Below, one piece after another: positions 46,067-49,317 of a stretch of 64,000 bases of DNA (the first letter of the stretch is position 1; each line of letters begins with the position of its first letter). The DNA comes from Bythopirellula polymerisocia. Lineage in GTDB: Bacteria > Planctomycetota > Planctomycetia > Pirellulales > Lacipirellulaceae. Location: positions 310,001-374,000 of the forward strand of contig NZ_SJPS01000001.1 in NCBI RefSeq assembly GCF_007860015.1, written 5' to 3'. The position numbers and the translations under genes are program-made. The notes beneath the pieces are model-generated. The model did no database searches, was not told where the DNA came from, and saw nothing but the letters and a program-made list of their open reading frames with translations.

Positions 46067-46148
46067 AATCGCTGCTATATCGAGCAGTCATGGATGCCAT
46101 TTGACAACCCCTTTTCTCCCCGCTAAACTGCCTGCTGAATTGATCGTG

Positions 46149-46351
46149 CCTTGGTGATCGGCCAGTGAGAATGTTGTCTCAGCCGACAAACAGGGAACTC
46201 CGGTGCGAATCCGGGACGGCCCCGCCGCTGTGACCGAGCAATATCAAGCGAATTTTTCTTTTGTGCCATTGTCTGTAGTGCCCTGCAAGTTGTGAGGCCA
46301 GGCGAGAAGGCCCGTTCGCTTGAGCTTGGGAGTCAGAAGACCTACCAACGC
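46149..46351 (+). promoter_or_regulatory. Cobalamin (B12) riboswitch
   Basis: The conserved core is plain: ACAGGGAAC (46189-46197), CGGTGCGAATCCGG (46201-46214), GACGGCCCCGCCGCTGTGAC (46215-46234), and the 3' B12-box-like GGGAGTCAGAAGACCTACC (46328-46346). The closing helix P1 is TTGGT (46151-46155) with ACCAA (46344-46348). A ~200-base span with a long variable arm (46240-46320) fits the class. It reads into the prepilin-like gene at 46519. No strong terminator follows; AACTC/GAGTT at about 46398-46411 is weak, so control may be at translation. Confidence 0.93.
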
Positions 46352-46518
46352 GTTGTATGTGGCCTGCTGCGAGGGACAGCGACCGCGTAATTAAGAAACT
46401 CTGCTGAGTTCCTAGTCAGTTGTACTTAATGCTCGCAAGTTGCTTATATGCACATGTATAGCGTTAGCGCGACTGCCTGCAGAATTCTCGAAAGCAGTGT
46501 ATGTGCGGCAAGAGTACA

Positions 46519-47355
46519 ATGCGGCGACTCCCTTCGCAGCGGGTAGGTTTTACATTAGTGGAACTGCTGGTCGTGATCGCCATCATTGGGGTGCTGATTG
46601 GGCTCTTGCTGCCTGCCGTGCAGGCGGCACGAGAGGCGTCGCGGCGTTCGCACTGCCAAAATAACTTGCGGCAAATCGGCGTGGCCCTGCTCAACTATGA
46701 ACAGCAACATGAGGCGCTCCCAGTCGGCTGCCTTGAGAAGCGTATCTCCGGCAAGAATCCACCTGGACGCCAATTATCATGGATTGCTTCCTCGCTTCCC
46801 TACCTAGAACAGTCGACGCTCTTCGAACAACTCAACTTTGCCGTTGCTTACGACGATCCCCAGAATCTGAATGCAACCCAAACGGCACTCCCTGTCTATC
46901 TATGCCCAAGCACTTTCCGTTTGGCACCCAACCGCAGCAGGATGTTGGCTGGCGCTTCCGACAGTTCGCAAGGATTGGCGGTGTGCGATTACGGCGGAAT
47001 CTATGGTGCTGCTTTCGTATCCCCCTCAGCTAACGGCGTACTGATATACGACCATGCTATAGCCATCCAAGAAATCACCGACGGCACAAGTTCCACCTTA
47101 ATGGTGGCAGAAGATACGGGCCGCAACTGGATCATGGATGGCGAGTGGATCAACGGCGAAAACATCTTTGACCAGAGTAATTCGATCAATACGCAGCAAG
47201 ACAACGAGATCTGGAGCGACCACCTAGGGGGTGCCTTCTCGCTCCGCTGTGATGGGAGCGTCCGTTTTCTTGATGAAAAGACTTCGACCGAGGTGCTACG
47301 GGCCCTGTGTACCCGCAATGGTACTGAAATTCCCGCGATTGTTTCTAGCAATTGA
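46519..47355 (+). CDS. DUF1559 prepilin-like surface protein under B12 riboswitch control
   Basis: From ATG 46519 the product is 278 residues; ATG 46501 adds six. The N-terminus is a type IV prepilin signal: Arg/Gln-rich leader, then GFTLVELLVVIAIIGVLIGL and LPAVQAAREASRR. The body is DUF1559 (CQNNLRQIGVALLNYEQQHEALP; SSLPYLEQSTLFEQLN; YLCPST) with the C-terminal H-x-GG...DGSVRFL motif (DHLGGAFSLRCDGSVRFLDE). Such proteins are processed by a prepilin peptidase and exposed from the inner membrane or assembled. It is the first gene after the cobalamin riboswitch, so it should be made when B12 is scarce. Confidence 0.9.
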   Translation: MRRLPSQRVGFTLVELLVVIAIIGVLIGLLLPAVQAAREASRRSHCQNNLRQIGVALLNYEQQHEALPVGCLEKRISGKNPPGRQLSWIASSLPYLEQSTLFEQLNFAVAYDDPQNLNATQTALPVYLCPSTFRLAPNRSRMLAGASDSSQGLAVCDYGGIYGAAFVSPSANGVLIYDHAIAIQEITDGTSSTLMVAEDTGRNWIMDGEWINGENIFDQSNSINTQQDNEIWSDHLGGAFSLRCDGSVRFLDEKTSTEVLRALCTRNGTEIPAIVSSN

Positions 47356-47401
47356 TTGGAACTACTTACTAACAAACCTGGTTTTCATAGGACTGAACAA
47401 C

Positions 47402-48436
47402 ATGAAACTGAATTCTCGCCCGTTTCGCATCGCCAGATATCTAATTCTACTAATCGCTTTGTTGTCATCCGTTAATTCTGTGCAAGCGTTGCCCGAGGGA
47501 TATCGAAAGACAATGATAGAGTTGAATTCGCCCCCTATAGGTCTCGCTTTTGATTCGAGTGGCATTCTGTACGCTATGGAAGGAGCCCCTTTTGGTACAA
47601 ATGCCGCAACGATCCGTGTCAATCACCCTGATGGCTCTTTTGGCATGGATCTCCCGATCGCTGGCGATGACGAAAATAATTTCTTCATCGGTGGCATGAC
47701 ATATGATCCGATTGCCGATGGCCTCTTGGTCACGGACAACACGGCGGATGGACGCATCTATTCCTTGAGTAAGACTGGCACAAAGGGGCTCTTGGCCAGC
47801 GGCATTCCCGCCATCGCTGGAGTTGCGGTGCGCAGCACGGGGGAGATTTTTGTTTCGTCAGCATTGGGCGACAACCTGGGTCAAGTTTTTCAAATTGATC
47901 GAGTCAGCGGAACTGCAACACCCGTTGTCTCAGGCATTGATTACGGAGCAGGTTTGGCTTTCGATACCAACGGCGACCTGCTATTGCAAGATGCCGATGC
48001 GACAACTTTTGCGGGCAGAATCCAACGGCTGCCGATCTTTGAAAATGGTGGAGGATTAACCTTTGGCAGCCTCACGCCGTTGATTGATGGCATGCAGTCC
48101 TCCGCGGGAATCGCATTCGACAGCGAGGGAGATCTCTTTAGTACAGGGCCCGGCGGTCTGTTTGCCATTGCCGGCGAGCCACTCGCCGAAACCCTGTTTG
48201 ACAGCGATGGCGATCCTTCTCAATATGCCACGGCGATCGCATTTAGTGCAGGCACCGCCCCGTTCGAACCCTTCGCGGGACCCGACGGAGGTCGGATGGC
48301 ATTTATGGCGAATTTTGGTTTTAGTACTCAAGATACATTTATCACAATCATTGAACCACTTCCGGAACCAAATTCCCTTCTACTGGGGGGCCTACTCCTT
48401 TCTTTGCTGGGGGCCCGAAGAAAACTGACCGCGTGA
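47402..48436 (+). CDS. PEP-CTERM beta-propeller protein in the B12 locus
   Basis: The 344-residue product starts at ATG 47402, 46 bases after the prepilin-like gene and behind AGGAC. A signal peptide (cut near VQALPEG) precedes NHL/SMP-30-like propeller strands: PPIGLAFDSSGILYAMEG, GGMTYDPIADGLLVTDN, AIAGVAVRSTGEIFVSSA, GAGLAFDTNGDLLLQDAD and SAGIAFDSEGDLFST. The C-terminus LPEPNSLLLGGLLLSLLGARRK is a PEP-CTERM sorting signal. Co-transcription with the riboswitch-controlled gene is likely. A role in binding or handling cobalamin at the surface is inference. Confidence 0.85.
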   Translation: MKLNSRPFRIARYLILLIALLSSVNSVQALPEGYRKTMIELNSPPIGLAFDSSGILYAMEGAPFGTNAATIRVNHPDGSFGMDLPIAGDDENNFFIGGMTYDPIADGLLVTDNTADGRIYSLSKTGTKGLLASGIPAIAGVAVRSTGEIFVSSALGDNLGQVFQIDRVSGTATPVVSGIDYGAGLAFDTNGDLLLQDADATTFAGRIQRLPIFENGGGLTFGSLTPLIDGMQSSAGIAFDSEGDLFSTGPGGLFAIAGEPLAETLFDSDGDPSQYATAIAFSAGTAPFEPFAGPDGGRMAFMANFGFSTQDTFITIIEPLPEPNSLLLGGLLLSLLGARRKLTA

Positions 48437-48507
48437 CTTTCTGTCTGTGGAATGGTTCAATGAAAGGCACATTTGTTTGATCGATGAACCATTCTGCAGG
48501 CTCCATT

Positions 48508-49317
48508 ATGTCTGAAAACACTGGCGAGCTTCAGCACAATGCCCTCGCTTGGGACAAGCTGGCGCGCAAACAAGTACCGCTGGCCCAGCCTGCTGTTGAT
48601 GCCGATCTGACTGATCCCTTGGCCAAGGTCGATCCTCTCGGATGGCTAGGTGGGAGCGTCCACAACAAGCGAGTACTCTGCCTTGCAGCTGGGGGAGGTC
48701 GCCATGGGGCAATCTACGCTTCCGCTGGGGCCAACGTAACGGTCGTCGACATCAGCGGTGAGATGCTCGCACTCGATCGTGCAGTGGCCGCCGAGCGCGG
48801 CCTCGCGATTCGCACTGTGCAGACTTCGATGGATAACCTGAATATGTTTGTCAAAGGGGAATTCGAGATCGTGATTCATCCCGTCAGTACTTGTTACATC
48901 ACGAACGTGTCACGTGTGTTTGCCGAAGTAGCCCGAATACTCCGGCATGGAGGGCTCTACGTGAGTCAACATAAATCGCCGGTCAGCTTGCAGGCGGAAA
49001 TACGCCCTCAGCATGGCGGCTACCGTCTGACTGAGCCATACTACCAGTGTGGGCCTCTGCCTCCAGTGGCCCCCTGTCGACTGCGCGAGTCAGGCACACT
49101 GGAATTCCTGCACCGTTGGGAACAACTCATCGGCGGTATGTGCCGCACGGGATTTGTCATAGAGGATCTAGTCGAGCCGCAACACGCTGACCCAGAAGCT
49201 GAGCGTGGGAGTTTCGGCCATCGTGCGCAGTTTTTGGCGCCATATGTGAGGATCAAAGCGCGACGGATCAATCAAGCATCCACGTCCACGCCCTCTTCGC
49301 TCTTCGTCGGATCGTAA
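48508..49317 (+). CDS. Class I SAM-dependent methyltransferase
   Basis: From ATG 48508, preceded by AGG at a fitting distance, the product is 269 residues; ATG 48484 adds eight. The SAM-binding motif I is VLCLAAGGGRHGAIYASAG, followed by VTVVDISGEMLALDR, and the post-motif strand reads FEIVIHPVSTCYITNVSRVF with RILRHGGLYVSQHKSPVSLQ. Similar planctomycete proteins are annotated only as methyltransferases of unknown substrate. It lies 71 bases after the B12-locus propeller gene and may belong to that transcript. Its end overlaps the convergent gene by 46 bases. Confidence 0.85.
   Translation: MSENTGELQHNALAWDKLARKQVPLAQPAVDADLTDPLAKVDPLGWLGGSVHNKRVLCLAAGGGRHGAIYASAGANVTVVDISGEMLALDRAVAAERGLAIRTVQTSMDNLNMFVKGEFEIVIHPVSTCYITNVSRVFAEVARILRHGGLYVSQHKSPVSLQAEIRPQHGGYRLTEPYYQCGPLPPVAPCRLRESGTLEFLHRWEQLIGGMCRTGFVIEDLVEPQHADPEAERGSFGHRAQFLAPYVRIKARRINQASTSTPSSLFVGS

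Follow-up and report, generated by a model that had tools for sequence, protein, structure and literature searches.

The window analyzed here is a stretch of 64,000 nt from the planctomycete Bythopirellula polymerisocia (contig NZ_SJPS01000001.1, positions 310,001–374,000 of the forward strand), in which a cobalamin riboswitch is followed by a gene for a prepilin-like protein (pseudopilin) of the DUF1559 family and by a gene for an exported beta-propeller protein, here called PROP. We consider this locus to be probably a riboswitch-controlled cassette for the capture of vitamin B12, carried by a probable B12 auxotroph. This reading is favored because DUF4465 and BtuH-like proteins occur in the same slot in relatives, because cassette parts of these kinds are found in clusters with BtuF, and because the genome has MetH without a match for the BtuB–BtuFCD importer. 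Corrinoid binding by the PROP of the window, the role of the pilin, the surface location of PROP, and the direction in which the riboswitch acts are inferred. The elements of the cassette are as follows.

46135–46363, + strand: aptamer of the cobalamin riboswitch (RF00174; 81.5 bits, E = 1.6e−18, model positions 1–189 of 189)
46501–47355, + strand: DUF1559 prepilin-like (pseudopilin) gene, first of the cassette (PF07596, 156.8 bits; cut-off 23.3)
46546–46611, + strand: prepilin N-terminal methylation motif, DUF1559 residues 16–37 (PF07963 N_methyl, 21.7 bits, slightly above the cut-off of 21.2)
47402–48436, + strand: exported beta-propeller (PROP), candidate for cobalamin capture, encoded second in the cassette (predicted model and Foldseek)
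48362–48424, + strand: PEP-CTERM-like tail of PROP, residues 321–341 (PF07589, 14.5 bits, under the cut-off of 20.7)

The aptamer exceeded the gathering score of RF00174 (31.5 bits) and was the sole match to this model found across the 6.14-Mb genome. An earlier, sequence-only reading had proposed a complete cobalamin riboswitch that starts at 46149 and reads into a DUF1559 gene. The covariance-model search, with its full-length match, bears out the riboswitch and moves its start, which had been placed 14 nt too late. The next gene matched both PF07596 and the N-terminal methylation motif, as expected of a DUF1559 member, and the PROP gene follows it after a gap of 46 nt. As a norm of this class, a cobalamin riboswitch is unbound when intracellular B12 is low, and the operon is then on.

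The conservation of this arrangement was examined in 43 genomes of the family to which the window belongs (genomes and loci are designated by G and L numbers). RF00174 was found in 41 of the 43 genomes, with 52 matches; 44 of these riboswitches had at least 2.5 kb of downstream sequence and were taken as informative, the other eight being dropped as shorter. A DUF1559 gene started within 300 nt of the aptamer end in 37 of the 44 informative loci, indicating that the proposed link between riboswitch and DUF1559 is conserved in relatives. One of three exported slot proteins was encoded within 4.5 kb, likewise in 37 of the 44 loci: PROP in 8, a DUF4465 protein in 8, and a protein designated FDDI in 21. 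A BtuH-like companion was present at all 21 FDDI loci (as fragments only in L039), at 7 of the 8 DUF4465 loci, and at 1 of the 8 PROP loci. By genome, a BtuH-like gene was present in 3 of the 10 PROP genomes versus 28 of the 33 others (Fisher p = 0.002, with related genomes that are not independent), and none was found in the genome of the window. PROP apparently takes the place of the pair formed by slot protein and BtuH-like protein.

Neither PROP nor the BtuH-like protein behaves as a common paralogue placed by chance, and this explanation was rejected for both. In a tail-trimmed search of the 43 genomes, 10 strong PROP genes (>400 bits), one per genome, and five weak matches (<40 bits) were obtained. 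For eight of the 10 strong genes, a riboswitch is located no more than 5 kb upstream, and the remaining two sit at contig breaks: the PROP gene of G023 starts 28 nt into its contig, and that of G038 lies behind a DUF1559 gene on a contig that then ends. The BtuH-like protein gave 36 matches; 33 of them likewise have a riboswitch within 5 kb upstream, and for the other three, the contig ends 0.4 to 1.6 kb away on that side. A scan of named genomes for PROP returned eight loci (Pirellulales, Planctomycetales, and metagenome-assembled genomes of Planctomycetota), which are not independent of the family loci.

Seven informative loci had no slot protein. In L032, a TonB-receptor gene with a plug domain follows the riboswitch, and in L033, L035, and L041, the genes are presumably nrdA and nrdB; class I ribonucleotide reductase genes are among the known targets of cobalamin riboswitches. 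At L037 and at the first riboswitch of L076, a BtuH-like gene comes first, and at the second riboswitch of L076, DUF1559 occurs with DUF6580 (PF20221) and a BtuF-type protein (PF01497). The order also varies at L069, where the slot protein and the BtuH-like gene come first and DUF1559 later. At this locus (L069:5972–7768, the third riboswitch of G034), a single open reading frame (ORF) combines a different propeller-like domain, a PEP-CTERM motif, an FDDI domain, and a second PEP-CTERM motif.

The identity of the proteins that share the slot with PROP bears most directly on its function. DUF4465 (PF14717) proteins are reported to bind B12, eight distantly related members having been tested (PMC13398666). 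The DUF4465 slot proteins of the relatives exceeded the PF14717 cut-off, for example with 179.9, 181.2, and 191.4 bits (E = 7.5e−53 in one example); the locus of the window itself has no DUF4465. At L055:5116–7041, DUF4465 and a BtuH-like domain are fused in one ORF of 642 residues behind the riboswitch and DUF1559. The BtuH-like profile matched the H domain of Bacteroides thetaiotaomicron BtuG1 (8blw_B, residues 394–498) with E = 1.4e−5, the next match being at E = 0.66 in one search and 0.27 in another, so that the relatives' protein has sequence kinship with BtuH domains through 8blw_B only. This C-terminal extension of BtuG1 has been called homologous to BtuH2, a B12 binder (PMC10404256, PMC8941943). 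The FDDI proteins had no Pfam match above a cut-off. Their predicted model (predicted local distance difference test [pLDDT], 81) returned transcobalamin or intrinsic factor in 16 of the first 23 Foldseek rows, weakly (E = 0.13–1.6), with no row at 0.001. The resemblance of the FDDI model to transcobalamin is suggestive, not proof; a link to DUF4430, of the transcobalamin beta domain type, is presumed. Mainly because it shares the slot with the DUF4465 and FDDI families, PROP is probably a corrinoid-binding protein.

An AlphaFold2 model of PROP built with eight sequences was a beta-propeller (mean pLDDT, 82), a fold that also characterizes BtuG, whose propeller is seven-bladed and YncE-like. 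Its best Foldseek matches were propellers of SMP30, Drp35, and strictosidine synthase, together with paraoxonase. The sequence-only reading had described this protein as a PEP-CTERM beta-propeller: the model and Foldseek agree with a secreted propeller, and a PEP, hydrophobic stretch, and RR pattern is visible in the tail, but the PF07589 score stays under the membership cut-off, which some partner proteins of relatives pass (L040, L126). The best row of one search of PROP against Protein Data Bank (PDB) sequences, at E = 0.0018, was a dockerin match to the tails of relatives.

To compare the histories of the parts, trees were sorted by partner type. The DUF1559 tree included 36 of the 37 riboswitch-linked rows, L081 being left out because it was missed by the motif pattern; an earlier quick tree had 34 rows. 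This tree sorted perfectly by partner type, requiring two changes, the minimum, versus a shuffled mean of 13.5, and the three groups had support of 100/100 (FDDI), 94/90 (PROP), and 81/72 (DUF4465). No such sorting was observed in the trees of the riboswitch (14 changes versus 14.1 shuffled; 37 rows), of the methyltransferase encoded behind PROP (11 versus 10.8; 27 rows), or of the AroE and BioD proteins encoded beyond it (11 versus 11.1 in 26 rows and 10 versus 9.7 in 22 rows, respectively). The riboswitch and methyltransferase trees followed the genus instead (13 changes versus 25.1 shuffled and 8 versus a shuffled mean of 17.6, respectively), and a sigma-factor tree had too few rows (12) for an effect of genus to be distinguished from chance. 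Consistently, the riboswitch of the window is 86% identical to that of L045, an FDDI-type locus, whereas the pilin nearest that of the window belongs to the PROP-type locus L067 (63%). Because the pilin tree sorts by partner and the flanks do not, the pilin and its partner appear to move together, bounded by the riboswitch and the methyltransferase, and judging from these trees, they act as a matched cassette that is swapped while the riboswitch stays resident. An old duplication with differential loss is also possible, in which case pilin and partner would still stay matched; G005 and G014 carry two cassettes each. That pilin and partner stay matched argues for their working together but does not show that they are in contact.

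The need for B12 was assessed from marker genes. The genome of the window encodes a B12-dependent MetH (E = 1.7e−122), as do 39 of the 43 family genomes in all. No MetE N-terminal domain above the cut-off was found in any of the 43 genomes (one weak match in G018), nor was CbiC, a marker of corrin-ring synthesis, found in any of them. The organism is therefore a probable B12 auxotroph. Among importer parts, the window's genome gave no match for the TonB plug domain, and thus nothing comparable to the BtuB neighbor of BtuG, and none for Peripla_BP_2 (the BtuF type), which is present in 10 of the 43 family genomes. FecCD matches occurred in 37 of the 43 and exceeded 250 bits only in G003, G025, G027, and G038. 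The two FecCD matches of the window's genome (32.5 and 29.2 bits) were rejected as BtuC: both scored as metal permeases of the ABC-3 family (197.9 and 181.9 bits) and are encoded next to ZnuA. The BtuB–BtuFCD importer is thus represented in this genome by no plug, Peripla_BP_2, or true BtuC match. The statement that no BtuB, BtuF, or cob gene lies in reach of the riboswitch holds near the locus and, in the searches made, genome-wide. The same searches in 14 control genomes returned the plug in 3, Peripla_BP_2 in 13, MetH in 7, CbiC in 7, FecCD in 13, and MetE in 10.

Across the phylum, RF00174 was found in 179 of 196 genomes drawn. Among the matches listed, 60 places from 56 genomes were surveyed, and at least one of five profiles occurred downstream on the coding strand in 16 of them; the other 44, read by eye, held TonB-receptor-like, propeller-like, methionine-synthase-like, and ribonucleotide-reductase-like genes, among others. 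A single riboswitch at L111 precedes genes for DUF4465, BtuH-like, prepilin-like, and BtuF-type (PF01497) proteins and an ATP-binding cassette (ABC) ATPase, the last four of which overlap or abut as called; the prepilin-like protein has the N_methyl motif only and no PF07596. L087 carries DUF1559, then a small protein, a Diphthami_syn_2 protein, DUF6580, and a BtuF-type protein, and the arrangement at L090 and L113 looks like that of L087, with DUF6580 confirmed. The L111 and L087-type clusters indicate that such cassette parts also occur with recognized transport genes. At L126 and L114, DUF4465 is grouped with prepilin-like and BtuH-like genes. In other families (L092, L103, L115, L116, L124, and L134), the riboswitch gene reads as a larger propeller-like secreted protein, with weak Pfam matches of the Lactonase/YNCE type in L092 and L103 and by eye in the other four.

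DUF6580 was present in 39 of the 43 family genomes and in none of the 14 controls, and it was riboswitch-linked in L076, L087, L090, and L113. The DUF6580 of the window's genome (L154:5908–6453, G000:C1) reads as a membrane protein, and no RF00174 match lies near its gene. A DUF6580 profile of five sequences, compared with PDB sequences, matched neither BtuM nor any other known B12 transporter. We regard DUF6580 as a candidate only for an inner-membrane cobalamin transporter.

In the mechanism that we propose for the B12 capture cassette, low intracellular cobalamin would lead the riboswitch to permit the expression of the two genes. PROP would then be exported, kept at the envelope by its PEP-CTERM-like tail, and capture corrinoids outside the cytoplasm. 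Judging from its motif, the DUF1559 pseudopilin would be processed by a prepilin peptidase; its matched evolution suggests that it belongs specifically with PROP, with a probable part in presenting or moving it. A further step, which we put forward tentatively and think rather doubtful, is that import proceeds without BtuB or TonB, the dedicated pseudopilin and its cognate exported B12-binder forming a pilin-based capture-and-import machine. It is suggested by the sorting of pilin and partner together while their flanks do not sort, and by a second DUF1559 gene upstream of a ZnuA-type cluster. If it were true, the large DUF1559 family would consist of nutrient-specific pseudopilins, each with its own cargo binder. 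The second gene just mentioned (L155:404–6251, G000:C7, in the window's genome; PF07596, 161.3 bits) stands before an uptake cluster in which a ZnuA protein is joined by an ABC ATPase and by two ABC-3 permeases that end in an iron-dependent-repressor metal-binding domain.

Several observations weigh against reading the locus as a B12 capture cassette. The nearest folds of PROP in Foldseek include enzymes, BtuG was not among the best 50 of the 749 rows with E ≤ 0.001, and against PDB sequences the propeller part gave no match below E = 0.01, neither a B12-binding homologue nor BtuG. The BtuH-like profile matched no BtuH structure besides the H domain of BtuG1, the structure of BtuH2 included. 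BtuB-like receptors lie behind 2 of the 52 family riboswitches (L032 and L074), and the TonB plug domain occurs in 17 of the 43 family genomes, 16 of them above the cut-off. No conserved expression platform was found: a helix that would sequester the start codon, although strong in the window's locus (z = −4.2), showed no conservation across 38 loci (mean z = 0.03; four below −2). The importer negatives cover the plug, Peripla_BP_2, and FecCD, whereas the BtuM, CbrT, and BacA types were not searched for, and the genome of the window is a draft that is 94.8% complete. Five single-contig family genomes (G001, G009, G010, G011, and G039) have MetH and neither plug nor Peripla_BP_2; therefore, incompleteness alone does not explain the missing importers.

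Other explanations start from the same parts. The exported proteins could store, sequester, or compete for B12 off the import path, with entry through an unrelated, unrecognized permease; the DUF4465 proteins BtuJ1 and BtuJ2 are reported to act on extracellular vesicles in Bacteroides (PMC12751083), the cassette of the window lacks a transmembrane importer, and the widespread DUF6580 membrane protein is unlinked to a riboswitch in the window's genome. However, the same kinds of parts stand with BtuF in L111, L087, and L076, suggesting a link to import, and we consider this alternative unlikely. We give still less weight to PROP being an enzyme of the SMP30, lactonase, or strictosidine-synthase kind that replaces or supplements a B12-dependent step in the manner of a B12-independent isoenzyme. 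Its nearest folds, including paraoxonase, would suit such a role, as would the riboswitches before the presumed class I ribonucleotide reductase genes at L033, L035, and L041, but PROP shares its slot with DUF4465 and FDDI proteins under the same riboswitch and with related pilins, and the propeller fold is common to many non-enzymes. It is most improbable, in our view, that the operon makes an adhesive surface fiber that binds no B12 and for which B12 is merely an attachment cue, for example to B12-exchanging algae. DUF1559 has a pilin-type N terminus, and planctomycetes carry pili-like fibers (PMC5394234), yet this proposal leaves the exchange of PROP with B12-binding DUF4465 and BtuH-like proteins, and likewise the BtuF clusters, unexplained.

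Upstream and downstream of the cassette, the following features were noted.

46101–46129, + strand: sigma-70-like promoter TTGACA-17-TAAACT (consensus scan, 10 of 12 matches)

This site stops 6 nt short of the riboswitch, a position that is its sole support, as one sigma-70-like site was observed in the region versus 2.5 expected by chance. Behind PROP lies an S-adenosylmethionine methyltransferase gene (48484–49317, PF08241), with genes of the shikimate dehydrogenase (aroE) family and of the AAA_26 family (read as bioD) further downstream. The sequence-only reading had included the methyltransferase in the locus; the gene is real, but we rejected it as a part of the cassette because its tree follows the genus and not the cassette type, which places it outside the exchanged unit. 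A perfect 10-bp inverted repeat (GAATGGTTCA / TGAACCATTC; window positions 48450–48494) surrounds the start of this gene.

In the literature, a phrase search found no pairing of cobalamin riboswitches with planctomycetes; such a search can miss cases, as illustrated by Thermogutta terrifontis, a planctomycete reported to have an RF00174 riboswitch, with no target named in the portion available (PMC5673643). Searches for a cobalamin riboswitch paired with DUF1559, and for any mention of DUF6580, found nothing. In another organism, PEP-CTERM genes are described at c-di-GMP (cyclic diguanylate) riboswitches and cobalamin riboswitches at synthesis genes (PMC12530212), and PMC12078418 mentions neither B12, cobalamin, nor DUF1559. 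The DUF4465 family has been linked to TonB barrels and beta-propellers (PMC13398666), and the main text of that paper contains none of the terms “planctomycet,” “PEP-CTERM,” and “DUF1559.” The literature searched has no description of a DUF1559 pilin gene in first position where the genome gives no TonB plug match. The suggestion of an undescribed system for capturing or scavenging cobalamin is thus supported by comparison as regards the pilin-linked arrangement without a recognized importer, but not all of its protein families are undescribed.

According to a survey from 2009, more than 90% of the bacteria that depend on B12 uptake have BtuFCD homologues, and the remainder were inferred to use additional transport systems (PMC2667541); Gram-negative bacteria have been stated to require BtuB at the outer membrane (PMC6072759). 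The locus is a concrete candidate for such extra transport in genomes that have MetH and no match for MetE, CbiC, or those importers. DUF1559 is a large family of planctomycete proteins whose role is unknown, and the locus also offers a testable function for one member of it. Should pilin and binder work jointly, the locus would bear on the uncharacterized macromolecule uptake and the pili-like fibers of planctomycetes (PMC5394234).

Among known systems, the closest comparison is with BtuG, BtuH, and BtuJ of B. thetaiotaomicron, surface lipoproteins for cobalamin capture whose task the cassette would share and which are also exported proteins under cobalamin riboswitches (PMC10404256, PMC8941943, PMC12751083). 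That set includes a beta-propeller, a BtuH domain, and DUF4465, and the relatives of the window carry DUF4465 and BtuH-like proteins at the same operon position. In contrast to the Bacteroides system, no BtuB, BtuF, or BtuC-type gene was found in the genome of the window, PEP-CTERM-like tails take the place of lipoprotein anchors, the cassette starts with a DUF1559 pseudopilin gene, and the window's PROP shows no detectable relationship to BtuG and lacks a BtuH-like companion. The DUF4465 family itself is the slot protein, between DUF1559 and the BtuH-like gene, at 8 of the 44 informative family loci, whereas the window holds PROP in its place. BtuM is a single small cobalamin importer (PMC6072759), and DUF6580 is likewise small and reads as a membrane protein; its profile does not match BtuM, however, and a similar role for it is a guess. 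Finally, 68 DUF1559 paralogues of unknown function have been counted in P. limnophila (PMC10632474). The first gene of the window is a member of this planctomycete family by profile, and it differs in being tied by a riboswitch to one substrate and co-inherited with one type of exported partner.

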